Shown: one piece after another, positions 2,036-38,700 of the stretch
Layout: each line of letters starts with the position of its first letter
Numbering within the stretch: position 1 is the stretch's first letter
NCBI GenBank assembly: GCA_032622095.1
Contig: CP136064.1
Location: forward strand, 194,773,948-194,837,947
Direction: 5' to 3'
Origin: Siphonodentalium dalli
Taxonomy: Eukaryota; Mollusca; Scaphopoda; Gadilida; Siphonodentaliidae
DNA: 64,000 bases
Position numbers and translations under genes: made by a program
Notes under the pieces: model-generated
Told to the model about the DNA's origin: nothing
Database searches by the model: none
Seen by the model: the letters and a program-made list of their open reading frames with translations, nothing else

Positions 2036-2147
2036 GGGAGCAGACAATTGATGAAACTAAAACAATTAGCTATATACAAATTTCACATAAAAGCAACCAA
2101 GTGGAAATGTTTCCGTTAGGAGTCAAGAATATAAATTCAAGAACTGA

Positions 2148-2955
2148 CTAGTGTCTAAACATATAACATAAAACGCACAAACTTAGTACAAGAATACAAG
2201 CGGAATACATAGTCAATAAATAAAGTTGAAATTGCCAAGGTTTCAGGTCGAAATCAAAGCAGTTTCTAACGTCGGATTTTGCAGTGACAAGGTATAATTT
2301 ATTATATTTAATGAATCTGGAGTGAGCGTTTATCAAAGCGTCAATTTGACGGTCAGGTGGGTGACACGGAAGGTTATCTTTCACACAACCAGCAGACTCA
2401 AACCAAAAATGCTGTATATTGTCTTTCCAAGTTATTCGTTGTGCTTCAAGCATCGTGTCAGACGTTACAAACTCAAATATCAACAGCTCGTTCTGAGAGT
2501 CAAATCTTTTGAGAGATTTTGGCGATTTTATTAGTTGAGCAACAATATATAGATTGTGTTGTAGCAACTGGCTCTGTTGTAGCAACTGGCTCTGTTGTAG
2601 CAACTGTCTCAAATTCAGTCGATGTGTCCATGGCTGGGACATGAAAGATCCATTGCAGCACCTTGACAGTTTAAAAAAAATCGTTTTGTACAATGTGTAT
2701 GACATGACCAGCAATAGAACACCGTGCACATATGATTTCTGTATTTTTGCCATTTCCTGGCATGGCCATATCCCTGATATTTAAAAGATCGTAATGGATT
2801 TGGAACATATGTATATTCATATATCCAACCTTCATTGTCTGTGGATGTTCGCGCTGATTGACGGTTAAACGATAGCTGTACAAAGAAACGTTTTGTCCAT
2901 CAATTGTCTTTGAAATTATACGGACTGGTATTCCCCGTAGTGCTAACTCCGTCAA
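2148..2955 (-). pseudogene. Gag-like ORF1 remnant (copy A), frameshifted
   Basis: Two overlapping frames carry one decayed ORF1. The upstream frame (2955-2671) has the pre-knuckle region: 'RIISKTIDGQ', then 'HPQTMKVGYMNIHMF', aligning with copy C 'MKVGYINIYLS'. It continues into one recognisable knuckle half, 'ICARCSIAGH', before the frame is lost near 2690. The downstream frame (2753-2148) carries the hydrophilic C-terminal part, including a glutamine-rich 6-residue repeat. Proteins of this type (RRM-like region plus CCHC knuckles) are the nucleic-acid-binding ORF1 of jockey/CR1-like LINEs and coat the retroelement RNA. The break and missing cysteines mean this copy cannot make a working protein. 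I infer ORF1 identity from the knuckle pattern in copy C. Confidence 0.55.
2557..2610 (-). repeat. 18-bp triplication inside ORF1
   Basis: Three copies of 'tgttgtagcaactggctc' (the last with one mismatch) give a Gln/Leu/Ser hexapeptide repeat in the C-terminal ORF1 of copy A. Copies B, C and D do not show it, so it is probably a local expansion. Confidence 0.8.
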
Positions 2956-3881
2956 TATTTACGATTCAGAAGTATCAGCAATATCGTTATTTCTCAACAC
3001 AGCTATGCTACTATTCATTGCCATGTGATGAGTAACCAACATTGGTGCTTGTGCAATAGATGTTAACTGCCGACTATCGAAGAGCGTCAGGTTGAACTTT
3101 CGTTGAACATTCACTCAGGAGAGATCCACTTATAGGCCCAGTCCTGATTGGAAAGATTTAAATTGTGTGCAGAAACGCATGTAGCGTTTTATCAACGACA
3201 CATGCGTAGGGTCTCTTCATCCGAATCAAAGCCATGAATTCTAGTACTGATTACATACCTCAGCACAATCTGAACTTAGCGAGTCTTTAGTCCAGAGATA
3301 ACTGCGCTTTTTTGTTTGTTTAAGTTGCCATATGAAAAGCAAATAATCGGAAACCAGCCTATCAGCGGCCTCAGACTACTTTCAGATTATGGTCCGGTCA
3401 AATACGGATATATAGCTGAAACGGTGGCCCGTTTAACCGCTGCATATAGCAAACTCCCGGTACTTCTCCACAGTAATACATACGTGATCAGTACTATAGT
3501 TAAACATTTAACAATCATCAATACGACTTCAAAGAGACATGACCCAACACAAACAAAAATATACGAAAAACAGAAAACACAACTGCAGACATAAGAAAAA
3601 ATAAAACAAATAACATAAATTTAATCTTAAACATTGGAGAGGCGTGACTAGCCGATTGAGAATAATTAACCAAAGCCATCGAAATCCTAAACCGAAATCG
3701 TAACAACGAATATGGAAAAACAACAACGGATAGAAAGAACACAAATTCTAGTGACGTAGTACCCTTTTCGTAATAATTATCTGTCGTTCATTATGCGAAA
3801 GATGTCTACTGTCATAATAAGACGAAACCATTACATAAATAGGCCCGAAGAAAGGATTTCTGATTACATAAGTTACTTTAA

Positions 3882-4125: not shown

Positions 4126-4149
4126 TTAATTCGAGGTCAGAATTCATAA

Positions 4150-5400: not shown

Positions 5401-5430
5401 GTGAAAATGAAGAGCCAAGAAGATAACGTC

Positions 5431-7735: not shown

Positions 7736-7797
7736 AAACGATATGAAGTACTGAATTATTTTTATGCGAAGCTATACGTTGCATTATTGAGTTTACA

Positions 7798-7806
7798 TAT
7801 ATATCG
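7798..7806. repeat. Left 9-bp target duplication of foldback element 1
   Basis: TATATATCG immediately precedes the terminal inverted repeat (GGTGTGACTAAACACC). The same 9 bp follow the right end. The AT content makes chance matching possible, but both copies sit exactly at the element ends. Confidence 0.6.
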
Positions 7807-9746
7807 GGTGTGACTAAACACCGCCCGGACCAGCCCGGACCAGCCCGGACCCCCCCATATGGACTATATGAGTGATTTTAAGGGCAATATAAGTGCAGGG
7901 GTGTCATGGAAACCCACTCAGGGTCACTATTAACCCTCAAAATGCCGGCATCGGCAAAATGTTCGCCGCGAAATGAAGCTAACAGCCCGAACCACCCCTG
8001 CTGCGTCCAGGTGTGATTTTAGTATCCATATCTGTGCGAGTGTGTTAATGAAACCCAAATACGCGCGGAGAGTGGTCAAGGTCAAACGGAAGTGCCGTTT
8101 ATTAACCCCTAAACTTCCCAGATTCAGCCAGAATTACAAAATTGCGCCCCAAAAAACAAACTCACAGCCCGGACCCCCTTAATATCCTCGTACTTCTAAT
8201 AACTCCTTACATATGTGTTGTGGAACTACCCTCGACTACACTCACGAAGATACAAGGGCGAGTCGCCCACAAATGCCTGGCAATTAACCCCCAAAATGCC
8301 GCCATCGACGATTATGTTTACCCATAACGTGCTGACAGCCCGGACCAGCCGGGACCATCCCGGTCCAGCCCGGACCCCCCATATGGACTATATGAGTGAT
8401 TTTAAGGCCAACATAAGTGCAGGGTGTCATGGAAACCCACTCAGGGTCGCTATTAACCCTCAAAATGCCGACATCGGCGAAAATGTTCGCCGCGAAATGA
8501 AGCTAACAGCCCGGACCGCCCCTGCTGCGTCCAGGTGTGATTTTAGTATTCATATCTGTGCGAGGGTGTTAATGAAACCCAAATACGCACGGAGAGTGGT
8601 CAAGGTCAAACGGAAGTGCCGCTTATTAACCCCTAAACTTCCCAGATTCAGCCAGAATTACAAAATTGCGCCCCCAATAAACAAACTCACAGCCCGGACC
8701 CCCTTAATGTCCTCGTACTTCTAATAACCGCTTACATATGTGTTGTGGAACTACCCTCGACTACACTCACGAAGATACAAGGGCGAGTCGCCCACGAATG
8801 CCTGGCAATTAACCCCCAAAATGCCGCCATCACCGATTATGTTTACCGATAACGACGCTGACAACCCGGACCGCACCTGCTGCGTCTAGGGGTGATTTTA
8901 CTATCCATATCTGTTCGATGGTGTTAATGAAATCCATCTACGCACGGAGAGTGCTCAAGGTCAAACAGAAGTGCCGGTATTAACCCCTAAACTTGCCAGC
9001 TTCAGTCATAATTACAAAATTGTGCCCCCAATAAACAAACTCACAGCCCGGACCCCCTTAATGTCATCGTACTTATAATAACTCCTTACATATGTGTTGC
9101 GGAACTACCCTCGACTACACTCACAAAGAACCACGGGTGAGTTTCCCCACGAAAGTTTGGCAATTAACCCCCAAAATGCCGCCATCGCCGAATATGTTTA
9201 CCGATAACGACGCTGACAACCCGGACCGCACCTGCTGCGTCTAGGGGTGATTTTACTATCCATATCTGTTCGATGGTGTTAATGAAATCCATCTACGCAC
9301 GGAGAGTGCTCAAGGTCAAACAGAAGTGCCGGTATTAACCCCTAAACTTGCCAGCTTCAGTCATAATTACAAAATTGTGCCCCCAATAAACAAACTCACA
9401 GCCCGGACCCCCTTAATGTCATCGTACTTATAATAACTCCTTACATATGTGTTGCGGAACTACCCTCGACTACACTCACAAAGAACCACGGGTGAGTTTC
9501 CCCACGAAAGTTTGGCAATTAACCCCCAAAATGCCGCCATCGCCGAATATGTTTACCGATAACGAAGCTAACAGCCCGGACCGCCCCTACTGCGTCTAGG
9601 GTGATTTTAGTGTACTTAACTGTTCACGTGTGTCGTGGGAACTCACATACACACGGACGATGGTCACGGCCAAACAGAAGTGACGATATTAACCCCTAAA
9701 CTTGCCTGATTTATTCAGAATTACAAAATTGTGCCCCCAATAAAAG
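7807..9746 (+). repeat. Left arm of foldback 1
   Basis: The arm has two three-monomer units (diagnostic 'catatggac' at 7856 and 8380), then two-monomer units of 355 bp and a diverged terminal piece (9560-9746). The shorter units lack the monomer that contains 'catatggactatatgag'. Confidence 0.8.
8841..9550 (+). repeat. Two identical 355-bp dimer units
   Basis: 8841-9195 and 9196-9550 read the same base for base as far as I compared them by eye. Neighbouring units differ at many positions. This indicates a very recent duplication or gene conversion inside the arm, or a duplicated stretch in the assembly. Confidence 0.8.
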
Positions 9747-9869
9747 AAACGAGGGCGAGTCTCCGGCCAAAACATCGAAAGATTACCAACATAGAAATGC
9801 GATGTGTTTGTTCGTTATAACATTTATTGATATAATTAACATAATTAATATTTTAACATAGAAATAATA
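9747..9869. other. Central spacer of foldback 1
   Basis: This is AT-rich unique sequence between the two arms and contains no frame of note. It is the loop if the arms pair. Confidence 0.65.
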
Positions 9870-11878
9870 GAATCTTCGTGAGTGTAGTCGAGGGTAGTTC
9901 CACAACACATATGTAAGGAGTTATTAGAAGTACGAGGACATTAAGGGGGTCCGGGCTGTGAGTTTGTTTATTGGGGGCGCAATTTTGTAATTCTGGTTGA
10001 ATCAGGGAAGTTTAGGGGTTAATAAGCGGCACTTCCGTTTGACCTTGACCACTCTCCGTGCGTATTTGGGTTTCATTAACACCCTCGCACAGATATGGAT
10101 ACTAAAATCACACCTGGACGCAGCAGGGGCGGTCCGGGCTGTTAGCTTAATTTCGCGGCGAACATTTTCGGCGATGCCGGCATTTTGAGGGTTAATAGCG
10201 ACCCTGAGTGTGTTTCCATGACACCCCATGCACTTATATTGGCCTTAAAATCACTCATATAGTCCATATGGGGGTCCGGGCTGGACCGGGATGGTCCGGG
10301 CTGTCAGCGTCGTTATGGGTAAACATAATAGTCGATGGCGGCATTTTGGGGGTTAATTGCCAGGCATTTGTGGGCGACTCGCCCTTGTATCTTCGTGAGT
10401 GTAGTCGAGGGTAGTTCCACAACACATATGTAAGGGGTTATTAGAAGTACGAGGACATTAAGGGGGTCCGGGCTGTGAGTTTGTTTATTGGGGGCGCAAT
10501 TTTTTTATTCTGGCTGAATCTGACAAGTTTAGGGTTAATAAGCGGCACTTCCGTTTGACCTTGACCACTCTCCGTGCGTATTTGGGTTTCATTAACACCC
10601 TCGCACAGATATGAATACTAAAATCACACATGGACGCAGCAGGGGCGGTCCGGGCTGTTAGCTTCATTTCGCGCCGAACATTTTCGGCGATGCCGGCATT
10701 TTTAGGGTTAATAGCGACCCTGAGTGGGTTTCCATGGCACCCCAGCACTTATATTGGCCTTAAAATCACCCATATAGTCCATATGGGGGGTTCGGGCTGG
10801 ACCGGAATGGTCCGGGCTGGTCCGGGCTGTCAGCGTCGTTATCGGTAAACATAATCGGCGATGGTGGCATTTTAGGGGTTAATTGCCAGGCATTCGTGGG
10901 CGACTCGCCCTTGTATCTTCGTGAGTGTAGTCGAGGGTAGTTCCACAACACATATGTAAGGGGTTATTAGAAGTAAGAGGACATTAAGGGGGTCCGGGCT
11001 GTGAGTTTGTGTATTGGGGGCGCAATTTTGTAATTCTGGTTGAATCAGGGAAGTTTAGGGGTTAATAAGCGGCACTTCCGTTTGACCTTGACCACTCTCC
11101 GTGCGTATTTGGGTTTCATTAACACCCTCGCACAGATATGGATACTAAAATCACACCTGGACGCAGCAGGGGCGGTCCGGGCTGTTAGCTTCATTTCGCG
11201 GCGAACATTTTCGCCGATGCCGGCATTTTGAGGGTTAATAGCGACCCTGAGTGTGTTTCCATGACACCCCTGCACTTATATTGGCCTTAAAATCACTCAT
11301 ATAGTCCATATGGGGGGTCCGGGCTGGACCGGGATGGTCCGGGCTGTCAGCGTCGTTATGGGTAAACATAATAGTCGATGGCGGCATTTTGGGGGTTAAT
11401 TGCCAGGCATTTGTGGGCGACTCGCCCTTGTATCTTCGTGAGTGTAGTCGAGGGTAGTTCCACAACACATATGTAAGGGGTTATTAGAAGTACGAGGACA
11501 TTAAGGGGGTCCGGGCTGTGAGTTTGTTTATTGGGGGCGCAATTTTTTTATTCTGGTTGAATCAGGGAAGTTTAGGGGTTAATAAGCGGCACTTCCGTTT
11601 GACCTTGACCACTCTCCGAGCGTATTTGGGTTTCATTAACACCCTCGCACAGATATGGATACTAAAATCACACCTAGACGCAGCAGGGGCGGTCCGGGCT
11701 GTTAGCTTCATTTCGCGGCGAACATTTTCGCCGATGCCGGCATTTTGAGGGTTAATAGCGACCCTGAGTGGGTTTCCATGACACCCCAGCACTTATATTG
11801 GCCTTAAAATCACTCATATAGTCCATATGGGGGGTCCGGGCTGGTCCGGGCTGGTCCGGGCGGTGTTTAGTCACACCG
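9870..11878 (-). repeat. Right arm of foldback 1
   Basis: Four inverted units: 'tccatatgg' recurs at 10263, 10778, 11305 and 11822, so periods are 515, 527 and 517. All are three-monomer units. They are closely similar to one another and to the first two left-arm units. Confidence 0.85.
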
Positions 11879-15924: not shown

Positions 15925-16235
15925 CCATCTTCGTTTTCCGTACCACACAAGGCCTCTACTAGTACCAGGACTGTGTCGAGAACCAGCAATATAGCTGATT
16001 CTTCTGAATATCGGCTGAGCAGGATCCAAACGCAGTGACAGATGTGCATGTAATTTCCAAAACAATTGGAAAAGGTGAACAGATGCTACTGCACGCGATG
16101 TTATGGCCTGCATCCGACCGCAACAGCCAACGACGTGGAAGTTTGGATACATCAATGTACATTTTTCACTGGCCACATTTGTGCCACCCACTATGTGGGA
16201 TGGACATGGCCAGGAGAACTGCGCGAATAAATAAG
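15925..16235 (+). pseudogene. ORF1 fragment (copy F) of the ORF1-only family
   Basis: One plus frame gives 'VPHKASTSTRTVSRTSN' then 'IADSSE', aligning with 'VTPHKTLSISRVVLRTTD' and 'LADSSE' in copy E and with copy D. Further on, 'VHVISKTIGKG' matches 'VRIISKTIDGQ' of copy A. After a frameshift 'KFGYINVHF' and 'GHGQENC' match the start of the zinc-knuckle region of copy C. The fragment therefore spans the pre-knuckle and first-knuckle parts of ORF1 and is interrupted at least once. Both ends are lost. Identification rests on alignment to the other copies in the window, not on a complete domain. Confidence 0.55.
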
Positions 16236-16669
16236 TTATATAGCTGTAGTTGTTCTGTCCCAGCTCATGGATCAGATAAATTATTCATGACCAACGTTGT
16301 GCTCTGTCTCGGTGCAGTCTGCAATGGGCCGTTTATGTACCATTTGGGAACGAATTAAAAATATAATCAAAGTAGATATGGTATCAAGATAATCTCAATT
16401 GTGAAGACAACCTTGAAAAAATGCTATCAAACAAAGAATTATCTATAAAACTACAAACTTATCGTTACACGGACTTTCTCAGAAATGCCGTGCATTTGAT
16501 CATCTTAATCAATTTCTTGATGAATAATGGCCAACGAAAAATGTAAGGTCTGACAAGAATAAACATTTGAGGAATCCCAAGCCCATTTTGAAATTATACG
16601 GCGAACGTGCTTTCACCTTTACCATATCTGCTCTGTGAAACTCTCTTCCGTTTGAACTCCGTTTCGACT
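16236..16669. other. Nothing recognised
   Basis: No supported gene or repeat. Confidence 0.5.
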
Positions 16670-18079: not shown

Positions 18080-18084
18080 TATTT

Positions 18085-18192
18085 CTAATCCAGTCAGTTC
18101 GCTTCCCATCGTGGTATCTCGTCATTCAAATTCTTTCTGTCGTACTATGGCCTAAGTGCTGAAACGACATAAACCATACTCAATCAATCACC
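18085..18192 (+). repeat. Retroelement 3' tail-like segment
   Basis: It ends 'gtgctgaaacgacataaacc' followed by 'atactcaatcaatca', resembling the 3' tail of copy D, which reads 'ctgctgaaacgacattaaac' then 'ccaataaatcagtcaa' on the minus strand near 37000-36960. It probably comes from a SINE or LINE sharing that tail. Confidence 0.4.
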
Positions 18193-19760: not shown

Positions 19761-21136
19761 GAACAGGCTGATAGAACATGCATGTAGCCGTATTGGATGA
19801 TGACCAATTACACACAACGGTGTCAATAGCTCCAATTCCAAACAATAATATAAACACCCGTTTCCCCGAGTAGGATATTAGATCGCATCGAGAGTATGTA
19901 ACACTGTTTCAAAAAAGGTTTAACCTACATGTCCAATGACAAAAAAGATAGTTTGAAAAAAATATCTCAAAATATCCGTTTGTATATGATATATGACACC
20001 GAGATGTCTATAAATCCACGCCAATAAAAAAGAAGTTGAAATACCATTGCCAGCAATACTTGAGTATAAGAATTAGGTAAAATATAATAAAACTGCGATA
20101 AATAATTGAATACAAATATAATATCCACCACATGGTTGTGAACTGAATGAAATAGTGAAAACGCCCATGCGACATGAGATGATGTATGTAAACAAGTGAC
20201 GGAATAGACAAAATGAGGAGAAATGAAAGTGGAAATAAATGAAAGTGAAAACAATGCTAATGAACCATGATTCAGATTAATATGCAAATATGAAAGCGAA
20301 ATTAACAAAGGATATATATAAAAACGTTCTGGACTGAGCACACTCATCATTAAATATAGACTGAACATTCTATGTGTGAAACTATAAATATCAATTGAAA
20401 TTACCACAAATTGAACTTACTCATTGGCGATTATAAATAACACTGGTTTCGACACGTGACACGTAGTGGAGCAACCACACATGCTGCGATTCGTTATTAC
20501 AATAATCATATGGTGATAATCAGGTGTAGTGCAACTTCTAATGACAGCCTACTATTATACCACTCGAATTATATATATATATTGTGCTATCATCACATTA
20601 AAATACCAAATTTGATAGGGGCTAAACTAATATAGTTATCACTAACAAGTTACCCGGCCAATCGGCAAACCTCGTCATTCCCCGTGACCGTTCCTAATAG
20701 GTCAAATGTCGAGTAGTCCAGAATGGTTACCCGGCGTTTTCCAGATTGAGAAGTAGTCAATCCATTACAAACCTTTGATGTGGTTTTCTATCAGTTAAAG
20801 CTACAAGGTTCTCCAACTTGTAAATTCGAACTACACACCCTTGACCCAGATCAAAATTCCCAACTTTGCGAAATCCCATTGCGTTTTATGTTTGCAGTGT
20901 TGTTTTTGTCGTCTCATGTTTCTTTGAATATGGTCTTGATGATTCTTGATTGTTCGATTCTAGTATTGTTCACGCCGGTCTCACTGTCGTGAGCTACATA
21001 TAGGCTGCCATTATGCATGCTGTTGTGAAACGGGTCACCGCTTCAGCTATCAACTAGTCTGATTCGACCATAATTATGAGAGTAGTCCGAACCGGCTGCT
21101 GGGCTAGTTGCCGATCATTTGCTGTTCATATGCTAA
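19761..21136. other. No gene supported
   Basis: A hydrophobic minus-strand frame at 19967-20407 (146 residues) has strong AT-codon bias and no recognisable domain; I treat it as chance. A short (TA)n run lies at 20570-20582. Confidence 0.4.
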
Positions 21137-21530
21137 AGCAACATGGCAGTTTGCGCTCCAAAGAAAAACTTAATATTCGCTTTTGATTTTCCCGGTATTG
21201 AAATAGGTCGACAAATTCTTGAACTACCTTTTTGTGGGCATTATACGCATTGAAGTCATAAAAAATACAACTTTGAACACTGTGTTCTGGGTCCCAAACG
21301 AATAACAGCCATGTACACGACATGGAACTGAAAATATCGTTACGTGCTAGTCTATTCCTGATATGGTAGTAATAAACAGTGTTGTAATCAGTTGGAAAAT
21401 GGCTGTGATTATGGAAAGTATTTTTCAGAGCACACGAAGCCGGTCTATAAATACTTCGTGTATTTATCAACATCATACACCTTCCAAATTACGTTAACAT
21501 AAATTGGAAGCTCGAGTGAGCCATGTCCGT
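21137..21530. mobile_element. TTAA-type element 'R', copy 1
   Basis: It is homologous along its length to 42121-42555 and, inverted, to 60445-60642. The left end reads 'CTAAAGCAACATGGC' (TTAA decayed to CTAA); the right end reads 'GCCATGTCCGT' followed by TTAA. Shared interior strings include 'tgaactaccttt', 'gggtcccaaac' and 'gtctattcctg'. Non-coding. Confidence 0.6.
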
Positions 21531-21534: not shown

Positions 21535-21809
21535 CCCTTTACCCAACAGAAGGGCCCTGTTAAAAATTATAAAATTGTTAAAGAATGTAGGCCAATGCAT
21601 TCTCATATATATGCTAGGCGACCTATGGTCGACTCGCATATATAAGAGAATGCATTGGCACAGGGCATAACTGTAACTATCACAATGTGGTCAAGGAGCC
21701 GGTTCCAATGATATCCATATTTGTATGGTTTTATTGAGACAGACCGAAGATATTTTAGGCTGTTGAAGCTTTATTTGGCCGGTTTTGGCCGGTTTTGTTG
21801 GGTAAAGGG
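21535..21809. mobile_element. piggyBac-like MITE, copy 1
   Basis: It is flanked by TTAA (21531-21534, 21810-21813). Ends CCCTTTACCCAACA and TGTTGGGTAAAGGG are exact inverted repeats. The interior holds a 67-bp near-palindrome (21592-21658) around 'gacctatggtcga'. TTAA plus CCCTTT ends identify the piggyBac group. Its left TTAA is also the right-end TTAA of the adjacent R element. Confidence 0.8.
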
Positions 21810-21994
21810 TTAACTCAAAGTACTTGGTTCCTAGCTTTGAGCCCAGTGTCAAGAGACCTTCTGTGATTTGTTATTGGCAAAAAGCTCCAAAGAATAACTG
21901 GACAATTGAAATCTAGCAAGACAATCAGAACTGGGTAAGTAAATGGTTCTCTCCTAATTGAATTTTCAAAGAAATGTCAATGTGACGGTCTTCT

Positions 21995-22183
21995 TCAGTT
22001 AACGTCTAGCAAACACACGTATTGGTTACTCCTCACAAGACCTTGAGTATCAGCAGGGTTGTGTTGAGAACTACCGATCTAGCTGATTCTTCTGAGTCTG
22101 AAATACTGGCTGAACTGATTCCAGACAGTCACAAAATGTTCGTAGAATGCCAAATACAATTGATGGTAAAAACATACTTTTAA
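21995..22183 (+). pseudogene. ORF1 fragment (copy E), cut by a MITE
   Basis: The plus frame reads 'VLVTPHKTLSISRVVLRTTD', 'LADSSESEILAELIPD' and, after a one-base shift, 'NTIDGKNILLT'. This matches the pre-knuckle region of copies A and D ('EILAELVPRG', 'KTIDGQN'). Just after that point the sequence runs into TTAA (22180-22183) and the second piggyBac-like MITE, so the MITE landed inside this ORF1 copy. What follows the MITE (22525 on) does not clearly continue ORF1. The fragment has no knuckles and is not functional. Confidence 0.55.
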
Positions 22184-22520
22184 CCCTTTACCCAACAAAA
22201 CGCCCAAAACCGGCCAAATAAAGCTTCAACAGCCTAAAATATCTTCGGTCTGTCTCAATAGAACCATACAAATATGGATATCATTGGAACCGGCTCCTTT
22301 ACCACATTGTGATAGTTACAGTTATGCCCTGTGCCAATGCATTCTCTTATATATGCGAGTCGACCATAGGTCGCCTCGCATATATAAGAGAATGCATTGG
22401 CCTAAAAATAATTTTAATGTGTTAAGCCAATGCATTCTCTTATATATGCGAGGCGACCTATGGTCGACTCGCATATATAAGAGAATGCATTGGCACAGGG
22501 CCCTTCTGTTGGGTAAAGGG
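22184..22520. mobile_element. piggyBac-like MITE, copy 2 (opposite orientation)
   Basis: TTAA lies at 22180-22183 and 22521-22524, with ends CCCTTTACCCAACA. Interior blocks are in reverse order relative to copy 1. The 67-bp near-palindrome is present twice (22334-22400 and 22427-22493), separated by 26 bp, explaining the extra length. Confidence 0.8.
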
Positions 22521-25982: not shown

Positions 25983-28017
25983 TTAGGGGTCAAAACGCTT
26001 AGTCGCTGCAATATATTGCTGTGTGATGGAAAATAGTTTCATATTTTGTTGGGACGAGAGATAAGGTAATCCACACATGAGTTCTGAAATATGGCTTACT
26101 TTGATATTTACGCGGTCTAGTTTCTCAAAGAGAACTGAGCGCTCACGTTGGTACAATGGGCACATGAAGAAATAGTGATATCTATTTCCACATGAGCATG
26201 CGGGGCTGTCAGCGATATAATTATTGAACATATCACATCGGAGTTCACTGCAAAAATTACGTATGCGACAATGAAAAATGTTGTATTTCCTGCGTCCAGC
26301 ATAGAAATGTAGAGGGGGGCTGATTGTGGGATCTATATGATACAAGTTGGTTTTGAAGGTAGAAGATTGATCAGCATCGGTGATTACGTTGGGAAGCTTA
26401 TTCCATTCTAACACCATCGCTGGAAAAAAGGACTGTTTGAAGTGTTCAGTATTGCAATAGTATGAGTAAAATTTACCGGGGCGTCTCCAATTATAATCTG
26501 CAACCTCGTGTGATCTGGGGGGAAGTGTATTGGCTCGATAAGAGGGGGCTAGATTATTGATTATTTTATAGAGTGCCTGCAGTTTATGTAGTTGACGTCG
26601 TTTATTGAGTGATGGCCATCCGACCTCCTGTAATACCGTGTTGTCCGAAGCAGAACGGGTGATACCACTGACTATCCGTCCAGCGTCGACATGAAGCCAG
26701 TCAAGCTTCTCTAACATATAATTTGAGGCATTGTCCCAGACGGCGTCTGAATAATCAAATAAGGGTAAAATATATGTTTCGTAAATAATTTCAATGGTTT
26801 TCCGGTTGAGTTGATATTTAATCCGTCGGAGTTGAGACAGACGTGAGACAATTCTTTTGACAGACCCTTCAATGTGTGCGTTCCATTTGAGATTTGATTG
26901 GAGTTCCAGACCTAAGTGTATATGCTTGTCCACGAAGTTGATTGAATTTACCACGAAATTGAGGTTTGGTTTCACTGTTGAGGGCGCAACTAATGAAAAG
27001 GACATGCCAACTGTTTTAGTTGGGTTGAAACTGACCAACCAGTTTTGGGACCACGCTGTAATTTTGTCTAAATCGCTGTTCATAGTATGTTCAAGTATAT
27101 TAAGATCAAAGTGACTGTTCGTGAGGCAAGTATCGTCGGCATACATTCTCGTTATTGATTCAATACCGTCGGCTAAATCATTTATATAGACTAAGAACAA
27201 AAATTGCCCCAGGATTTACCCTTGTGGAACTCCCGCTGGGATGACCTCGTATTTTGAAAATGTGTCATTGATTAGGACCCTCTGCGTCCGATTTTCTAGG
27301 TAGTTTTCTATCCAATTTAAAATATTTCCTTCTAATCCATAAGCATTTAATTTGTGTATCAGTCCCCTGTGCCAAACCCTCTCAAAGGCTTTGGAAATAT
27401 CACAGAATATAGAACATGTAAGTAGTCCTTTGTCAAGGGATTGGCACAGGTTGTGATATAGGTCTAATAGTTGGTATGTTGTACTATGACCTGTGATGGA
27501 AGTATAAAAGTTCATTTTCAATGAAAAATTTACTAATCTGTTTCAAAACCACTTTCTCAAAAACTTTAGCCACACATGGTAGAAGGGAAATTGGTCGGTA
27601 ATTTTTGGCTTCCGCTGGATCATCTTTTTTGAAAATCGGGATCACGTTTGCTGCTTTCCAGGACTCTGGGAATTTCTCAGAGTTGATAGATTTCCTGAAT
27701 AGAAGGACGAGTGGTTGAGCTATTGATTTTGCTGTTTCCCTGAGCATTCTAACACTAATTCCATCATGGGCTTTGTTAAGTTTAAAAGATTTGATGGCTG
27801 ATTCAACCTCTGATTCTGTGAAAACCAAATCTGGCAAGTTATGATTGGCATCATTAATGGTAGAATTTGCAATAAAGCTTTCGTTTAGAATTTTTGCTTT
27901 GTCGACATCGTCAATTGCATATGTCTTATTGTTGGCAGTTATAGTGCCGGAAGAACTGTATAGTGGGGGATGTTTTTTGCTCGTTTCTTGTTTAGTAGGT
28001 AATGTATTATTCTCCAA
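25983..28017 (-). pseudogene. LINE reverse transcriptase, broken
   Basis: This enzyme copies the element RNA at a nicked chromosomal target. The N-terminal finger region (28017-27484) has 'NYRPISLLPCVAKVFEKVV'; the palm (27521-27216) has 'CDISKAFERVWHRGL' and 'IPAGVPQG'. At that Gly an in-frame TAA (27216-27218) replaces the expected Ser codon. The next frame (27200-25983) holds the catalytic Tyr-Ala-Asp-Asp at 27132-27143. The thumb is followed by a C-terminal motif, 'CSCGNRYHYFFMC', typical of jockey/CR1-type enzymes. A frameshift lies near 27500-27520 and another near 28017, joining it to the endonuclease. The length matches the family; only small lesions disable it. Confidence 0.9.
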
Positions 28018-29062
28018 AAGTCTCGTGGGTTAGATGCTTCTCTTATTCGTTCTTCGATATTTTCTTCAAATTTGATTTTCGCGTGCTTCTTCATGTTATT
28101 GACTTTGTTCCTTATGTTTTTATATTTTCTCCAGACTTCAGGGTTATTTGCCTTCATGGCCCTTCTCCTTACTCTGTCGCGTTTTCGTATCTCAAACCGG
28201 ATGTCCGAATTGAACCAAATTTTGTCGGATGTTCTTACTGTAATGCATGATTGTGGAATTGTTTTCGCCATTATGGACAGGAATTCTAGTTGAAAGTTAT
28301 TGGCAGCTGTGTTCTCATCAGGTGCACTTTTTATGAGGTCATCCCAGTCGACATGGGCAAGTAGATTGTTTGCACGAGAAAAATTACATTTTCTGTAGTT
28401 CCATACTTGTCTAGGAAATGACGCTGCGGTAGTATTTTGAAATGATATTGTGGCATATACACCTAGGTGGTCCGAAACTCCGAGATTTAGGACATCGGAG
28501 TCTATTAAACGGAGTGAGCTTGAGGTCAAAATTGGGTCAAGCAATGTACTTGAGGTGCTGGTCACTCTAGTTGGGACTTTTATAGAATTTTTCATACTGA
28601 AACCATCCGTTATCTGTTTTAGCTTCGATGAATTATCCATGAAATTCGAGTTAAAATCCCCTGTGATGACTACATATTCGGAAATATCAAGAGCGTCAGA
28701 AATTGAGGATTCCAGGAGTCCCCAATAATTTTGGGTACAGAATTGATCAGATCTGTACGATAATCCAAGAACAATGCGAGTTTTCTTTGAGTGGATTTCG
28801 AACCAGAGACAAGAAGAATCGAATTCCAATTCAGGTTTACGATTAAATATTAAGTGGTCGGCGAACATTACGCATATTCCGCCACCCTTTGAATCACGGT
28901 CTTTGCGAATGGGGGAACAATAACCATCGATTTCTAGTTGGCTAGAAGGGTAAGATGGGTCAAGATGTGTTTCGGTGAAACATAGAATGTCAAATTCGTT
29001 TATAAGATCTGCAATTTTTTCAAGTTTATTTCGGATAATCCTTACGTTATATATAGTGAAAA
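27939..29062 (-). pseudogene. LINE endonuclease domain
   Basis: This apurinic-type endonuclease would nick target DNA. From about 29062, minus-strand codons read 'NVRIIRNKLEKIADLINEFD', then 'CFTETHLDPSYP' (the catalytic Glu motif) and 'GGGICVMFADHL'. Next come 'VVITGDFNSNFMDN' (metal-binding Asp/Asn) and 'GVSDHLGVYATI' (catalytic Asp-His). A linker rich in Arg/Lys follows and runs to 'NPRDFWR', where the frame shifts into the reverse transcriptase near 28017. All core residues are present. The upstream frame from the 2A-like leader is lost at 'tatatata' near 29050, where a 4-base TA expansion appears to have shifted it. Confidence 0.88.
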
Positions 29063-30199: not shown

Positions 30200-30830
30200 A
30201 TGCTGAGTATAATAGGAGATGGTCTTATAGTTGGTCGGATTTAGCGTGCAGACCCCCATTAAGGCTGAACAACTTCTATATCCCGATGGTACGGAAATTG
30301 CTGGACATCGACCGTCAGCTGGACATGGCTTTGTGATCTCATGGAAATGTGTTGATGCCACGTGGAGTCAGAATAATGCAGTCAGTTTATCATGTGCAAC
30401 GCAAGTGAAAGATACAGATGTTCCTTCCGTTCCAGAACATGATTCCCTGACAATGGACACTTCTACTCAAGTTGAGACAGTTGCTCCAAAACAATCAAAA
30501 CAGTAATTGATGGTTGAAGCTTCAGGTTGGTGAGAGACAACATTCGTTGACATTGCCACCCACCGATTGTCAACTTTATTGCATTGATAAAGGCTCAGGC
30601 AAGATTCATAAATATATTTCCTATTGATTATTTATTCCATCTGTATTTTTATGCTAATTTTATGTGTTTTAGATTGTTTATATGAAGACTAGTCAGCTCT
30701 TGAATACATAGTCCCGACTCCAAGTGGAAATTTCCTCTTGTGTGCTTTTATTGGTACATAGCTCATTGTTTTAATCACGTCCACTGTCTGCTTTCGGAAT
30801 ATTCAAAAATATATGAATGATTCTTATTTA
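30200..30830 (+). mobile_element. ORF1-only retroelement, copy B (5'-truncated)
   Basis: This plus-strand copy contains the C-terminal part of ORF1 (30231-30506) and then, without any enzyme domain, a 3' region. The 3' region carries 'gactagtcagctcttgaat' and 'ccaagtggaaatttcc' and ends near 'actgtctgctttcgg'. The same order is present in copy A (minus) and partly in D. The knuckle region and everything 5' are missing, as expected for a 5'-truncated retro-insertion. Confidence 0.6.
30231..30509 (+). pseudogene. ORF1 C-terminal part (copy B)
   Basis: The frame reads 'IKAEQLLYPDGTEIAGHRPS', 'KCVDATWSQ', 'CATQVKDTDVPSVPE' and 'TQVETVAPKQSKQ' to a stop. Copy C has the same order: 'RRKAEEHLSHIDAKKLVGHR', 'KCVDAIPQTQSQ', 'RQVETTDIIPVPE', 'VIETFPPKQSMQ'. 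The segment is hydrophilic, Ser/Thr/Gln-rich and without cysteine knuckles, typical of the tail of gag-like ORF1. The first Met is probably not the original start because homology begins downstream of it. Confidence 0.6.
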
Positions 30831-32929
30831 TACTATTTGTTTTTACGTTTCTCAAATTTCTGACTTGGGGAATGCTATAATATCGTCAACTAATGCATAT
30901 ATAGGAATGCACCTCCTCACACCTCATCCACGATAGTCCAGTCGCTCCACAAATTAGACAGTTTGTTGGTTCGAGTCCGCATGTACGGTCACACGAAACC
31001 TTCACTTGGTCTCAATAGGGTCAAACAAAAGTGGTGTATGGTGATTAACATGGCGGAGTATTCCTTCTCTTTTCCACGCCGAACAATAGGTCAAGGCAAA
31101 ATGTATTGGCTGTTTGAAGGAGCGTTGAGACGATCGACTCCGGTGTGTGTGATATAAAGTATATGACACATGCAATACTATAAACGAATCCATCTTTTTA
31201 TAGTTAAATTTAGCGAATTTGCCAAATTATAATCGCTGAATTTGAAAGTAAAGAATGTTATATGTAAAAATAATATAAGTGTAGTCACTATATTGAGAAG
31301 ATAATTTCATCTGCGTCACAGTCGGTTCTGCCATCATTTTTGACATTCAGAGCACTGGGAAGATATCACATTGCGTCAGCACCGGGTGACGGACATCGCA
31401 ATGCTTTGTTTTCAAAATCTGATGATCAAGAACCGATGCGAAAATGAAATATTTAAGATTTGCGAACTCACTTCTATGACATACACTTATAAGGCCTGCT
31501 TTGGATTAATACAAATTCGAAGCCATGTGTTAGGTCCCATTATATCAGTACACCGGTCGGGCTCATTATACGTACCACACTCTATCATATAATGTACCCA
31601 ATTCCAGTTCCCAGCGTATACCGTACGTAATTGACTTGTCTGAAAATTGCTCTAACTCGTTCCTTTGCCGGTTTACATCAATAAGTATATAAACACATCG
31701 TTGTTCTGGCAGAGGAAGTGGAAACTGAGGAAGATCTTAAGTTGTTGTTAAAAATTGTTTGAAAATGGGGCAGAGGCGTGGCCATCGATTAAACATATAT
31801 GCGCGGGCTGTTGACATGTTGGAAGTCATCTTGAGAAATTGATGATCCGCTGTATTGCTCATTGAATGCACGCCGTTGTCGTAACCGCGGAATTGATGAT
31901 CCACTGTATGGCTCACTGGATGCACGGTGTTCCCCTACCTCGGAATAACAATTACGTTGCGATCAATAATCCCCAGAGATCAACGTCAAAGACATCGAAT
32001 GAGTTCTGAAAGCTTTTAGCCTCGCGTCGCACGTCGCTGAGACAATGATTTAAGATGTCGTGACATTAAGTTTCATCCCCAATTAAATCATTCGCAACGC
32101 TAATGCATGTACGCTGGAGTTAATGCTTCAACGGTGTGCGCATACGCTAAGAAGCAAGTCTTTTGGTTGAGGTTCACCGCTTTAACTACTGTATATATTA
32201 AACGATAGAGACAATATTGAGATGAGCGATACACATAAATTGATAGGGCAGGGGGGGGGCATAATGTTGAGTCAAATGATACCTTCTTGAATCAAATGAC
32301 ACATTCCTATTCAAAATAAAGTATTTAATGTTTTATTTTGTCAAATGGAACTGTCCTCTTGCACAGACGTGAACTAATTCATTCTCTTTCTCTGGGTATG
32401 CCAATAGCAATTTGCTATTTACTGTGGTCAAATATGCACTTGCTGTTTGGTGTTAATATCATTTGGCTCGAATGACATGTGACTCGAGTGTCTTTTGACA
32501 TCGATATTATTTTACCACACACTTGAACATAAGAGGATGAAGATGTGCAACGAAAAATGGAAAATTTAACATATGTGGAAGATGAAGCTACGTACGACTA
32601 ATAGTGGAAAGTCCTTACCATTAATAACATGTACTTACCATTTAAAATAAATTATTTCAAAGATTTGTAACAAATATTATTTAAATCATATCTTTAAATT
32701 AAGGTTACTGAGTTCTTCCCACAAAACAGTTCAAATAATAATGAAATATACTAGGTCAATAATTATTTTCTAACAACATGTTTGATAGTTTAGTCAAGAT
32801 GAACTTGACTAGTAACCAGTCAATACACAAATTATTTCAAAATACTAACAACATCGTTGTTATGGCCTCGCGAATGCTACGCTCATGCTACACTCGTGAA
32901 CACTGTGTTGACCTTTGGATTTATTGATT
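30831..32929. other. No gene supported
   Basis: A stretch at about 31490-31610 ('tttggattaatacaaattcg', 'aagcc') resembles 39905-39990 and is probably repeat debris. A 9-base G run lies at 32251-32259. The short frames at 30963-31157 and 31371-31592 have no domain. A B-box-like 'ggttcgagtcc' near 30970 lacks a tRNA fold. Confidence 0.4.
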
Positions 32930-33223
32930 GGTGGAGGGTTTAGCTTCGTGTTAGCCGCTAGGCCATATCACGACCAGTTACGTAATCAGGTATCAAAAAG
33001 AAAGAACTGACTAGTGTGCTATCATAATATACAACTTATAATCGTAGTACAAGAATATATAATAAATAGCAAATAAATAACACGAAATTACCTGAACATC
33101 GAAATATGTAAAGTAGCTTTCAAAATCATATTACTTTATCAATGCGTCAGGTTGGTTAGTAATGTCATCCTTCACCCAACCGACAGCTCCAATCCACAAG
33201 TACTGTTTTTTGGTCTTTGAGAG

Positions 33224-33553
33224 TTAATCTTTTCTCATCAAGCATGTGGTCAAACTTGAAAGCTCAAAGAACCTCTGGAGCGAATTTGGCGAGTGTTGAT
33301 TCGAAGCAACATGCGATTTTTTTTTTGGAACAATAGTATCACCTTGCATAGATTGTTTTGGAGGAAATGTTTCAATCACAGGAGCTGTAGCCATTACCTG
33401 CGCTACAGGTTCTGGAACAGGAATAATATCAGTCGTCTCAACTTGTCTTGCTAGTGATACACTGGCGAGTTTGGTTTGACTCTGTGTCTGAGGGATGGCA
33501 TCAACACACTTTTTTGTAGAAACGATTGCTGAGTATGTATCCTGAGGCGTCAT
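33224..33553 (-). pseudogene. ORF1 C-terminal half (copy C)
   Basis: It contains 'TYSAIVSTKKCVDAIPQTQS', 'VSLARQVETTDIIPVPE' and 'VIETFPPKQSMQGD', aligning with copies B and D. The start Met is created next to the insertion; the true upstream sequence continues at 35414 and above. The C terminus is Ser/Lys-rich and ends at a stop close to where copies A and D end. Confidence 0.6.
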
Positions 33554-34348
33554 TTCGCTAAAATCCTATTCAGATTCTGGATTCAGATTACAGATTGGTC
33601 CCCGTACGACTTGGTTCGGCAAAAGAAAAGACCAGAAATTGGCAGAATCAGTAAACGAACAGACCGTAATCTCAATTTCGTGGTAATCCGATTGGGATTC
33701 GGATTCCGATTACGGACTCAAATGTTCGTAATGTAAACAAACCGAGATTTCGCCACCTCAGAGTTTAAAAACACAATAAAACAAAAGAATCCGTCTCTTG
33801 TGTACAAATTATTGCCGACTATAAACGATCTATATCAACGAATTTTAAATGCGGAGACAAATTTGTTTTATTGAAAGTAAACTGGGAGAATATTACTGAA
33901 ATTAGCCAAATAATAACGCTATTGATAGTAACGCTGGGGGAGCACTTCGGTTGATGGCGAAGCAATTGCAAATCATTGTTGATTGTCACTTTCATATGTC
34001 CATTTCATAATTCCATCCTTAAAATACCACCCGAACGCATGTCGATTTCGAATTCGGCGGATACGTCACCATTGACCGAATTCATATGAAACTGCATGGA
34101 TATGTCTTCTGCTGTGTTCGTTATTATAATGTTTCTTCTTATTCAAGAAATAGTAGGATTATATGGTATCGATGGATTATCAGATACACGTATGTACTAT
34201 CATCTAGTCTTAAAGTTATAGCAATTTCATGTTTAACATGTTTTGTTTCGTTAAATGCAGTCGTTTTGCACAATAGTCTCTTTATATACAACAGACACAT
34301 GTTCTAGGGACGTGGCTAGAAGTTTCCTCAAATTTCCGGCCAACTGCA

Positions 34349-34368
34349 CCCCCCCCCCCCCCCCCCCC
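34349..34368. repeat. 20-base C homopolymer
   Basis: An uninterrupted run of cytosines; length is likely to vary between reads. Confidence 0.95.
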
Positions 34369-34579
34369 ATTGAACCAAACATCAATCTCACAGGTGCGCA
34401 GAATTCAATTTGCTCCCCTTGGAAATTTCCAATCTGACAAACAACTAGATTGGAAAATTACCAACTTTTACTGGTTGAAAAAAATCAAACAATGAGAACA
34501 AAGCCAACCTATATATGGTGTCAAATTAATGTCCAACTAATGTTGTGTCATGCATGAAATTTCCGACTGCTGGAATGTA

Positions 34580-34900
34580 CCAAAGTTTAGTTTAGATATA
34601 TTTATTTCAAATATATTTCAAATTTAGATAACACATGATATATAACACATACATTTGTTTATACATACAATGGAATTGGGGGACAAGTACTGACTCACTT
34701 AAGGGTACCCCCTCTCCCATACGTTATTACACTGAAAAAATAAATAATTAGTAATGGCAAAGCAACATGACTACCAAAACAAGTTGAACATATATACAGA
34801 TCACTGGACACCCCCTCTCCCGAGTTAGTCATAAGTTTGTATATGTATTTATTTAAAATCGGGTTTGTTTGTTGCGTTTGTTGGCTTGTACGTATCATTA
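34580..34900 (-). mobile_element. Solo 3' tail of a LINE related to the 25.5-29.3 kb element
   Basis: On the minus strand 'tgggagaggggg', 'acttgtcccccaattcc', 'ttgtatgtat' and 'gaaataaatata' follow in the same order as in the LINE 3' end ('aggagagggg', 'acttgtgccccaatccc', 'ttgtatatttt', 'caaataaaatat'). A second 'gggagagggggtgtcc' block lies at 34807-34822. No coding part is attached, as in a severely 5'-truncated insertion. Confidence 0.5.
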
Positions 34901-35289
34901 TTTGAAACAGTTAGTCAAAATAATCCTGATTTTCCTCACGTATGAATGACTGCACAGCTTAGCAAATTGTACCAAAGTTCGGGGTGGGGGTCGAGATCCA
35001 ATCAACCCCTGTCGTCACGTCCCTGTTCAACTGACAAGTTTCGTGTGTTCTTCACAACATCTTCGGAATTTGATTCAGGAGGCCTAGAGCTGTCACGTTT
35101 AGATATGCTTGCCATCATCAATAAACACACTTTAACTTGAAAAAAAAGAAGATGCGATTAAGTCGGATTGGCAGCAAATTATGTGCCGTGTATATACACA
35201 TAGAAGAAAAGCATGAGTTTCACAACAAACATGAACTTTATAAATATAAGATACAAATGATACTTGTGTCAAATACATGAGCCATGTTT

Positions 35290-35760
35290 GACGCTGGGAG
35301 AACATTAAACATAATTTCGGAGACCACGTGGATTTCACAATCTGACCTAGAATCGGGAATTAGCCCCGCCCCCGTAATCGGCTTCGGATTCTCAATCCGG
35401 ATTTTAGCGAAATTACGACTCTGTGGAATGAATGGTCGATGACCAACTAATTTCTTAGCATCTATATGTGACAAATGCTCCTCAGCTTTACGTCGTTGAA
35501 GCTTGAATTCATTGTCCCAAATTGGACATGAACGATCCATTGCATCATTTGAACCTTGACAGTTTGAACATTTTTTAAGATTCGTACAATCCCTATGATC
35601 ATGACCAGAAAAAACACATCGTGCACATATTGTTTCTTTACTTTTACAACTTTCCTGGCCATGGCCATACCCCTGACATTTAAAACATCGTAATGTGTTT
35701 TGAACATATGTGCTTAAATATATATTTATATACCCAACCTTCAATGTCGGTGGATGATCG
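35290..35760 (-). pseudogene. ORF1 zinc-knuckle region (copy C)
   Basis: This is the best-preserved ORF1 segment. After 'MKVGYINIYLSTYV' come knuckle 1 Cys20-x2-Cys23-x4-His28-x4-Cys33 and knuckle 2 Cys40-x2-Cys43-x4-His48-x4-Cys53. A third knuckle, Cys59-x2-Cys62...Cys73, has Asn where His is expected. It is followed by 'RSCPIWDNEF', a Lys/Arg/Glu helix and 'KLVGHRPFIPQ'. Three consecutive CCHC knuckles are the hallmark of the nucleic-acid-binding ORF1 of jockey/I/CR1-like LINEs. After 'IPQ' the reading enters the inserted element. Upstream, to about 36080, the pre-knuckle region is present but decayed. Confidence 0.75.
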
Positions 35761-36959
35761 CACCGATTGAAATTCAGAAGATAACTTCTAAGTTACATAC
35801 GTTCAGTTGGAGCAAACTTATAGAATTCACACTAAGCGTGTTAGAAGGCACTGTCCCAAAGACAGGTCATGCTATTCAAGGAAGCATAAAATATACAAAT
35901 ATAAAACTAATTCCGCATCTAGAATGCACGAAACATATGCTCAATTTAAATCCGAGCGATGTAGGAACATGGAACAGGGACCACTAGTCTATTGCTTGAT
36001 TGTTGGGTATATTTCCACAACCCAAAATTTCAAACATTCGATCAGCAGGGAGCCACTTAATGGCCCAGCCTGATCGGTTTGACATATTTTATGCTTTCTA
36101 GCGTTTTAGCAATCACAAATATAGAAGGTATCTTGACATTCAGATTAGTACCAAGTACTGAGGATATACCTCAGTATCAGTGGAACTTAGTGGCCATTCT
36201 TACGTTTTTTGTTTGTTTTGAGTTGCCAAACTCGACAACTCTCCCAGCAGCCGCATCGGACTACACTTCGAGTTATGGTCGGTTCGAAGGCTGGCAAACA
36301 GCTGAAGCGGTGACCCGTTTAGCCTCTGCATATAGCAGCCTCTCGGTACCTCCCCAGATTGAGACAGACTTGAACATTACTAGATTGAAACATTTAAGTC
36401 ATGAAGAGGAAATGCACAGAGACAAGAGACGAAAGAAACAACATACATGAAAAAAATAATACACAACTAAACACCATAATTCAAAATAAAACAGACGGCA
36501 GAATTGTAATCTGAAACAACGTGGTGAGGCATGACTAGCCGATTGATTGAGCCAGGTCAACTTAAACACCCGTCTTGAAGAGATGTAGTACCATGCCAAA
36601 GAGAACCATGAGCTAAGCGGTATCCGTAGGTCTATGCCCCATGTGATGCGGCCGCCCCAATACCGCCAGGACTCATACACCACACCTCACGGGGGCGAAG
36701 ATGGTGCCACATTAGGGAATTCTTACCCCTCGCTGTTGGGCGGTATGCCTATTCTACTCCGGGCGCATGTAGGTTGACATTTGGATTATCAGTAAGAGTG
36801 CGCTAATTTTCGTTGTCTGGGATTGAAATCCAATTGGTATGGCTTAGAGAGCAGTTTCTAATTTTGGGATCACACTATAATATCATGTAATTGATAAAAA
36901 CAATACTGAGGAACAAGATAATCGTTTGTGGGTGAGGCTAGCACGTTCACAGAATGCTT

Positions 36960-38700
36960 CAGTGTCTTGACTGATTTATTGGGTTTAATGTCGTTTCAGC
37001 AGGAAATTAAGCCGCTCTTCCATATCATGACTAAGAGCGTAATCAGGTAGTCAAAACTATCGTAGCGATGCCGCTGTTTATATACAAAGCAGACAGTGTA
37101 TGAGACTAAAAGAATGATCAAAGCCATATCCACACCAAAGCACCAAAGAGGAAATGTTTCCACTTTGGGTTAGGAATATGTATGTAAACACTGACTAGTG
37201 TGTGAACATAGTACAAAGCGCGTAAACTTAATACAACAATACAGACGGAATACATAATCAATAGCGAATAAATCAAGTTAAATTTACAAAGGCTTCACAT
37301 CGAGATATGTAAAGAAGTTTCTAACGTCGGGTTTTCAGTGACAATATATTATGATACTTGATGAATCTGGCGTGAGCATTTATCAATTTGACCGTCGGTG
37401 GGTGACAGAAGATCATATTCACCAAACCGGCAGCTTCAACACACAAATACTGTTTGTTGACTTTCACAGTAATCTTCAAGTCTTGTGTCAATCTTTGCAA
37501 ACTCTAATATCAACATCAATATCAAAACGTTTGAGATATTTTGGTGAGTTTTGTTTGTTGCATCATGATCATCTTGAGTATATTGTGTTCTTAGCCAACT
37601 TGAGTGGATTGTTTTGGAGCAACTGTCTGAACTTCAGTAATGTCCTCACTACCTGTGATACAGGTTCTGGAACAGAAGCAATAGCGGTATCGTCAACTTG
37701 AGTTGCTAATGATACACTGATGACGTTGGTTTGACTGTCATTGTGCTGGTATCAAGACAGTTTATTTCGTAGAAACGGCAGCTGAGTATGTTACCTGAGG
37801 AATTGATAGTCTAGCACCAACTATTTTCTTAGTATCTTGATACTAGTTTCTTGATAAATGTCTCTCAGCCTTAGATTCATAGTCACATACGGGATCCATT
37901 GCAGCATTTGAGCCTTGAAAGTTTGAAAATATGTTTGATTTCGTACAATTCTTATGATCATGACCAGAAATATAACACCGTGCACACCCTGGTCATGCTC
38001 ATGCCCCTGACATTTAAAACTTAATGGATTTGGAAACATATATTGTTAAATCGTTCTTCAACATATCCGAAAGACATAACTTTTCAAAGGAAAGTATTGT
38101 CCACCAACTGTCTTAGACAAGCTGCTGACTTATGTAACTCCACGAGGTACCAACTCAGCCAATATTTCCAATTTAGAAGAATCAGCTATATCACGGGTTC
38201 TCAATACAACTATGCTACTATTCAAGGTCTTGTGGGGAGTAACCAACACTGGTGTTTGTGCAATTCTTATGCATTCTTGAGAGAGCCACTTATTGGCCCA
38301 GTCCTGATAGGATTGACATAGTTCAATTGCCCAGCAACCCTTTGTAGCGTTTCATAAATGACACCGTAACTACAGACATCGGGAGAACAGTACAACAAAT
38401 GACAGAAGTTTAATTTGAATCACTGTAGAGAGGTGTTAGCCAAATATTTGAGCCGGGTCAACTCAACCACCCATAATAAAGCAATGCAGGACCAAAGTGG
38501 ACCATGCGCTAAAGCCTTACCGCAGGTCCATGCCTCACGTGATATGACCGCACAAGTAACACCAAGTACCATCCATATAGCACCTGTTGCTGCGTGCACC
38601 CCACGGCAAAGAGAGGATTGTTACCACACACAGTGGGCGGTATGCCGGCCTATTCTACCCCGAATACGGGGTTCGGTGGCTTGAATCTGGCACATGACTA
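36960..38700 (-). mobile_element. ORF1-only retroelement, copy D
   Basis: This is a minus-strand copy immediately upstream of copy C in the same orientation. Leader 38700-38350 ('agaataggccggcatacc', 'tgagccgggtcaactc' on plus), ORF1 38330-37340, then the 3' region with 'cactagtcagt' and 'cactgtctgcttt'. The tail reads 'acctgattacgctctt', 'ctgctgaaacgacatt', 'aaacccaataaatc'. It is continuous where copy C is interrupted, so it serves as the empty-site reference. No enzyme domain is present. Confidence 0.65.
37340..38330 (-). pseudogene. ORF1 remnant (copy D)
   Basis: Read on the minus strand: 'LVTPHKTLNSSIVVLR', 'RDIADSSKLEILAELV', then knuckle debris ('FKCQGHEHDQG' with the first cysteines). 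Next come 'KKIVGARLSIPQ' running directly into 'VTYSAAVSTK', and 'SVSLATQVDDTAIASVPE'. This gives the expected continuous order across the point where copy C is split. Several stops and frameshifts separate these blocks, including a TAA after 'STK'. Non-functional. Confidence 0.6.

Follow-up and report, generated by a model that had tools for sequence, protein, structure and literature searches.

LINE derivatives that encode ORF1 only have so far come chiefly from mammals, in the form of HAL1 of the L1 clade, and from the telomeres of flies, in the form of HeT-A. HAL1 is a non-autonomous, ORF1-only derivative of mammalian L1 with several origins (PMC5753468). HeT-A of Drosophila, a non-LTR element, encodes gag but none of the enzymes required for its copying, and likely uses the reverse transcriptase (RT) of TART or TAHRE (PMC5537684). 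For LINEs of the stringent type it is established that the RT recognises 3' stem-loops and that non-autonomous elements may have the same 3' end, as in the LINE/SINE pair UnaL2 and UnaSINE1 (PMC5135761). Nimbus of Biomphalaria is a LINE of the I superfamily (PMC11203168). A search of the open-licence literature for ORF1-only non-LTR elements beyond HAL1 and HeT-A found none.

The stretch of DNA analysed here, called the window, comprises 64 kb (G000:C4:194773948-194837947) of an assembly of 2.23 Gb in nine contigs. We consider it highly probable that the window holds decayed copies of an ORF1-only non-LTR family in which ORF1 was kept by selection and ORF2 was lost once, and which would be copied by the endonuclease (EN) and RT of partner LINEs by way of a shared tail that was switched over time. 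The copies were delimited by blastn and tblastn, copies found elsewhere in the genome serving as probes, which yielded the following features (TSD, target-site duplication).

2041-3659, minus strand: copy A, 5'-truncated, with ~230 bp missing from the start of the leader; ORF1 frameshifted; last tail bases missing
15943-16393, plus strand: ORF1 fragment
18081-18190, plus strand: isolated 3' tail fragment
20879-21141, plus strand: leader fragment, resuming at 21816-22182 beyond an inverted-repeat insertion
21816-22182, plus strand: ORF1 N-terminal fragment (tblastn E 1e-24)
30260-30794, plus strand: copy B, 5'-truncated, retaining the ORF1 C-terminus and the 3' UTR
32907-32921, minus strand: 3' TSD of copy C, AATCCAAAGGTCAAC, 15 bp, imperfect
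32916-33547, minus strand: copy C, 3' part, comprising the ORF1 C-terminus and the 3' UTR, tail of type III
33548-35416, no strand assigned: unrelated 1.87-kb insertion splitting ORF1 of copy C, seen as a gap in the collinear match
35417-36767, minus strand: copy C, 5' part, with the leader and ORF1 to beyond the zinc knuckles (tblastn E 2e-67)
36773-36787, minus strand: 5' TSD of copy C, AATCCAAATGTCAAC, 15 bp, imperfect
36958-36970, minus strand: 3' TSD of copy D, 13 bp, imperfect
36967-38662, minus strand: copy D, end to end, with type III tail and decayed ORF1 (blastn against genome copies, collinear)
37143-37169, minus strand: hairpin CCAAAG.GGAAACATTTCC.CTTTGG in the 3' UTR of copy D (RNA fold z -3.2)
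37256-38363, minus strand: frameshifted ORF1 remnant of copy D (blastn 64%; tblastn E 1.5e-32)
38356-38662, minus strand: leader (5' UTR) of copy D, 71% identical to positions 10-323 of the reference copy L043
38672-38684, minus strand: 5' TSD of copy D, 13 bp, 2 mismatches

All four copies are decayed, and they follow the order leader, zinc-knuckle ORF1, short 3' UTR. An initial annotation of the window had described this order for copies A to D, and mapping with copies from elsewhere in the genome bore it out with good coordinates; that the copies lie on both strands (A, C and D on the minus, B on the plus strand) and that A, B and C are damaged had not been stated. The ORF1 matches in the window are far above chance, with tblastn E values down to 2e-67 in copy C, the knuckles of which are carried by a 168-aa ORF at 35238-35744. 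Copy C has both its ends, flanked by AATCCAAAtGTCAAC / AATCCAAAgGTCAAC, yet its ORF1 is split by the unrelated insertion; the flanks of copy D read TCAAGcCACcGAA / TCAAGaCACtGAA. The annotation was likewise right that no EN or RT lies inside copies A, B, C or D. The RT at 25983-28868 on the minus strand belongs to another LINE, which is ruled out as a partner by its unrelated 3' end. Because their TSDs differ (15 bp and 13 bp), C and D are separate insertions. The earlier claim that the joining of ORF1 to the 3' region "is not one deletion" therefore holds in the sense that it is not a private deletion of one locus; it does not hold for the family, in which the amplification of a single ORF2-less founder accounts for the shared junction better than several independent losses would.

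In the genome the family is built on a unit of ~2.2 kb with a fixed 5' start, ORF1, a 3' UTR that contains a hairpin and a terminal stem, and a short microsatellite tail. First-look searches returned 3139 candidates with copy D as query, 3487 with the zinc-knuckle protein and 7444 with full-length ORF1, rough figures that are not copy numbers, and only the best-ranking candidates were scored. Well over 100 scored copies belong to the family; they are scattered over all nine contigs and both strands and have TSDs. The reference copy or ruler, L043 (C3:26526667-26529942), measures 2212 bp, with a leader of ~550 bp, an ORF1 of ~445 codons and a 3' UTR of ~310 bp. It is bordered on each side by TTTAGTGCTGAAAC and terminates at its 3' end in CGACGTTAAACCCC(AATC)n. 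L043 and L041, the two youngest copies, are 98% identical, and in both, indels in a run of CAAA have put the usual ATG out of frame with ORF1, a point against the explanation preferred here. The layout recurs at 60 other loci of the genome, about 20 of which are collinear with L043 from position 1 to 2190 or further, and RT between ORF1 and the tail is absent from every copy among these 60. TSDs of at least 8 bp, each equalled in at most ~1 in 200 shuffles, border 13 of 22 near-complete units; two of the 13 (L018 and L020) represent one insertion that was duplicated along with its flanks. Apart from copies C and D of the window, TSDs of 8-14 bp occur at about a dozen distinct genomic sites. 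The family is large, old and still recently active. Its age follows from the identity of only 43% between its ORF1 and that of any partner found. The recurrence of the ORF1-only layout throughout the genome, with its ~20 end-to-end loci, supports the initial proposal of an independently evolved, non-autonomous family analogous to HAL1.

The product of ORF1 is a gag-like, presumably RNA-binding protein that combines an RRM-like part with three zinc knuckles. No Pfam domain reaches the cut-off in ORF1, and a comparison by sequence with the PDB revealed weak matches of the knuckles to retroviral nucleocapsid and nothing else. Selection was estimated on a tree of the younger copies, to the branches of which substitutions were assigned by parsimony; the UTR substitution spectrum served as the neutral standard. 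In codons 60-268, which span the RRM-like part and the knuckles, the internal branches carry 44 nonsynonymous changes against 79 synonymous ones (omega 0.19, p 5e-19) and the tips 310 against 183 (omega 0.59), a difference in omega with p 8e-8; frame-shifted controls gave 1.1-1.8. Stop gains reach 0.12 of the expectation on internal branches and 0.43 at the tips. Over the whole ORF the comparison of internal with terminal branches is not significant (p 0.15), and the signal emerges on regional division. Since the regional boundaries were chosen after an initial inspection, the regional p values are somewhat optimistic, but 5e-19 leaves ample room. Constraint is absent from the C-terminal module (codons 350-445; omega 1.03), where nonsynonymous and synonymous changes are both much more numerous; the module either is free to vary or has been swapped between lineages. 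It has no counterpart in ORF1 of the candidate partner L065, in which the match stops at codon 291. The purifying selection that had been proposed as a check on the family is thus found in codons 60-268, where it is strong on internal branches, and not in the C-terminal part, and the pattern is that of a protein maintained by selection in source copies and decaying after insertion.

Candidate partners are LINEs with the same 3' tails. L065 (C3:62295800-62302300) and L066 (on C7), both 6.2 kb long and bordered by TSDs, share 99.6% identity over 6222 bp; their type is here called LINE-1 and is not mammalian L1. They encode a zinc-knuckle ORF1 and an ORF2 of 1270 codons with endonuclease, RT and RNase H, and in L065 the Pfam domains PF03372/PF14529, PF00078 and PF00075 are all above cut-off. 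LINE-1 is an I-superfamily LINE as judged from its ORF1 and its layout of APE endonuclease, RT and RNase H. It starts at the same point as the ORF1-only family, with 68% identity over the first 243 bp, and the last 272 bp of the 3' UTRs are 85% identical, whereas the two ORF1 proteins are 43% identical over 285 aa. LINE-1 is low-copy, with at least four near-identical RT copies and further pieces at 88-99%. LINE-2 (L071 and others) is a second, decayed family, the C-terminal ORF2 part of which is ~40-44% identical to that of LINE-1; its terminus, GACGTAAAAATCTAACTAAACAAACAAAC, is the tail of a further set of ORF1-only copies. Through these matching tails LINE-1 and LINE-2 become candidate partners of distinct ORF1-only subfamilies, which agrees with the dependence on a partner LINE suggested at the outset. 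The top RT matches in the genome (L001-L004) and the RT families L069 and L070 were rejected as partners owing to unrelated 3' ends, and L092 and L093, examined for LINE-2 5' ends, contain none.

Three types of 3' UTR occur among the ORF1-only copies. Type I, found in L043 and others, matches LINE-1. Type II (L012, L025, L027, L029, L032, L033, L064) is similar to LINE-2 over its final ~60 bases and in its (CAAA)n repeat. Type III (L007, L024, L026, L030, L031 and window copies A, C and D) has a different hairpin in the same place; no LINE with this tail was found among the scored candidates. For the 3'-UTR hairpins of types I and III, folding is better than in shuffled sequences (z -2.4 to -4.8). 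In an alignment of 22 sequences, 94.9% of the cells of the 3'-terminal stem pair, with no compensatory change, the stem being conserved in sequence. On the ORF1 tree the tail type switches at least four times (shuffled mean 10, minimum 6) and type II occupies three separate places; ORF1-only lineages have switched tail type at least twice. Between tails of types I and II, DNA identity is ~82%, but over half of the residues in the C-terminal part of ORF2 differ between LINE-1 and LINE-2; the tails have therefore not simply co-diverged with the partners. Exchange of tails by template switching or recombination would be the likelier course. The wider scenario, in which a long-lived gag-only lineage outlasted its donors, retained its own ORF1 well beyond the lifetime of any single partner and at least twice swapped its 3' tail for that of an active LINE, with lineages proceeding in parallel, is put forward tentatively, as we rate its chances slightly below even.

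These observations suggest the following sequence of events. A founder would have lost ORF2 once and then amplified, while selection would have retained ORF1 in the ORF1-only lineage. The ORF1 protein of the element probably coats the element's RNA, the shared 3' tail of which would be recognised by the EN and RT of a separate, rare I-superfamily LINE, and the RNA would be inserted at the nick by target-primed reverse transcription. By altering its 3' tail to fit different LINE families, the family may have outlived single partners. The ORF1-only elements appear to borrow the copying enzyme of rare, separate LINEs by mimicking their RNA tail.

An autonomous LINE with the same ORF1, extant or recent, could instead bear the selection, and the ORF1-only copies could be internally deleted by-products thrown off repeatedly, as might be expected from the several origins of mammalian HAL1 (PMC5753468). 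No EN-RT LINE with the family ORF1 was found among the best-scored candidates, save for one unit discussed below; scoring covered only part of the first-look candidates, and a rare LINE of this kind may be missed. However, the EN-bearing copies carry other ORF1s (43% identical in LINE-1, 30-42% in LINE-2), the junction of ORF1 to the tail is common to young and old subfamilies, and in eight of eight sampled type III tails the family ORF1 lies directly upstream. We therefore regard repeated deletion from an autonomous source as improbable. The same evidence speaks against the case that the initial annotation had itself set against its reading, namely that most copies would carry ORF2 between ORF1 and this 3' region: the type III tails sampled are all ORF1-only, and the six EN-bearing LINEs examined have a different ORF1.

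The exceptional unit, C4:235449032-235452730, joins the family 5' UTR and ORF1 codons 1-267 (88.5% identical) to the ORF2 of LINE-2 from residue 228 on, followed by a type II tail. It lends some support to continued throwing-off, and it could be taken for the true parent, in which case LINE-2 originally had the family ORF1 and the family arose from LINE-2 by removal of ORF2. Yet upstream of all six LINE-2-like endonucleases examined lies a different ORF1, 30-42% identical to that of the family. One of these copies, at C6:192109200-192113092, has its own ORF1 at 42% and contains an ORF1-only element nested in its ORF2 with an 11-bp TSD (ACAGAATTTTC); the five others range from 30 to 41%. Since no clear TSD surrounds the C4 unit and no second example of such a join occurs among the LINEs examined, the unit is best read as a chimera formed by template switch or recombination, and descent of the family from LINE-2, which the chimera had suggested, is rejected as very unlikely. 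An origin as processed pseudogenes of a host gene that encodes a zinc-knuckle protein of gag type would also fit an ORF1 conserved by selection, but the 5' end and the 3' tail are of LINE type, the copies share a fixed starting point, the ORF1 of LINEs is a homologue of the family ORF1, and the copies scored are well over 100 in number; the chances of this origin are negligible. A single founder without ORF2, maintained through its selected ORF1 and the tails of partner LINEs, remains the preferred explanation.

Among the known systems, the I superfamily, to which Nimbus belongs, is resembled by the candidate partner L065 with its zinc-knuckle ORF1 and EN-RT-RNase H ORF2; the ORF1-only family differs in having no ORF2. 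As in UnaL2/UnaSINE1, the non-autonomous partner bears the 3' tail of the LINE, with a stem-loop and a short repeat. SINEs, however, have no ORF, whereas the family carries an ORF1 under purifying selection, its head matches the 5' end of a LINE and not a small RNA, and its tail has apparently been exchanged. With HeT-A the family shares a gag-only coding capacity with zinc knuckles, and the tail in common with LINEs suggests that its RT, too, may come from another element. The family would thus work like HeT-A without being a member of it, since HeT-A occurs only at chromosome ends in head-to-tail arrays, in contrast to the dispersed copies with TSDs described here.

An independent, abundant and dispersed case in the I superfamily, the candidate partner of which is young, apparently intact and present in the same genome, would offer a natural test of why a parasite retains its own ORF1 when ORF2 comes in trans and of how strict the RT of a LINE is in its choice of 3' tail. 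A ready-made swap series is provided by the subfamilies, whose distinct tails are matched by distinct LINEs. HAL1 has an ORF1p of the L1-clade type and a poly-A tail. It resembles the family in containing ORF1 only, with neither EN nor RT, and is thought to be mobilised in trans by a related autonomous LINE. The family differs in its ORF1 of the zinc-knuckle type, which aligns with ORF1 of an EN-RT-RNase H LINE (43%, 285 aa) and is not of L1-clade origin, in a specific 3' UTR followed by (AATC)n or (CAAA)n in place of poly-A, and in the RNase H of its candidate partner. In substance, then, the family works like HAL1 and is not HAL1: it is a HAL1-like parasite that evolved in another clade of LINEs.

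Sequences of the ORF1-only family and of LINE-2, the decayed endonuclease-RT LINE family that ends in the type II tail, are combined at two places in the genome:
C4:235449032-235452730: chimera of the 5' half of an ORF1-only element, LINE-2 ORF2 and a type II tail (loci L074, L094 and L095)
C6:192109200-192113092 (locus L096): full-length ORF1-only element inside LINE-2 RT, with ACAGAATTTTC at its flanks
The chimera was probably generated by template switching.

A run of A/CAAA has changed its length in the youngest ORF1-only copies (L043, positions 937-1000, as well as L041 and L038), which puts the usual start ATGGCAACTC in a different reading frame from ORF1; older copies, L054 and L016 among them, have this start in the frame of ORF1. 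On the internal branches, the C-terminal module of ORF1 (codons 350-445 in the coordinates of L043, the copy that serves as ruler) carries approximately 3 nonsynonymous changes per codon, compared with 0.2 in the RRM/knuckle part. Synonymous changes in this module are likewise raised, and the module may have been exchanged among lineages.

The surroundings of the window copies include a further ORF1 copy and a different LINE:
G000:C4:194840409-194840681, plus strand: additional ORF1 copy, ~2.5 kb past the window end
Window 25983-28868, minus strand: different LINE with endonuclease and RT, a broken ORF2 and an unrelated 3' end
The window also contains a repeat array (7956-11863) with units of 355 bp and 517-527 bp, the halves of which are mutual inverted copies with 97% complementarity. 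Two blocks of 209-bp tandem repeats (54685-55461 and 56732-57177), apparently opposite in orientation, are separated by ~1.3 kb. Inverted repeats of 226 bp with CCAATGCATTCTCTTATATATGCGAG (21588-21813 and 22179-22404) form a MITE-like element, the sequence of which also breaks the LINE-2 tail in L071; the end of L069, from another RT family, shows a start similar to it.

Related ORF1-only copies are clustered at one site:
C3:73.04-73.46 Mb: loci L022, L036, L048, L055 and L056
Several of them have the identical flank ACTGCCGATGCAG, which indicates that local segmental duplication multiplied a single insertion. The pair L018/L020 on C2 is similar to this duplicated cluster. At C3:28784432-28795046, four type I tails lie on one strand with a spacing of ~3-4.3 kb; this arrangement is a local tandem duplication.
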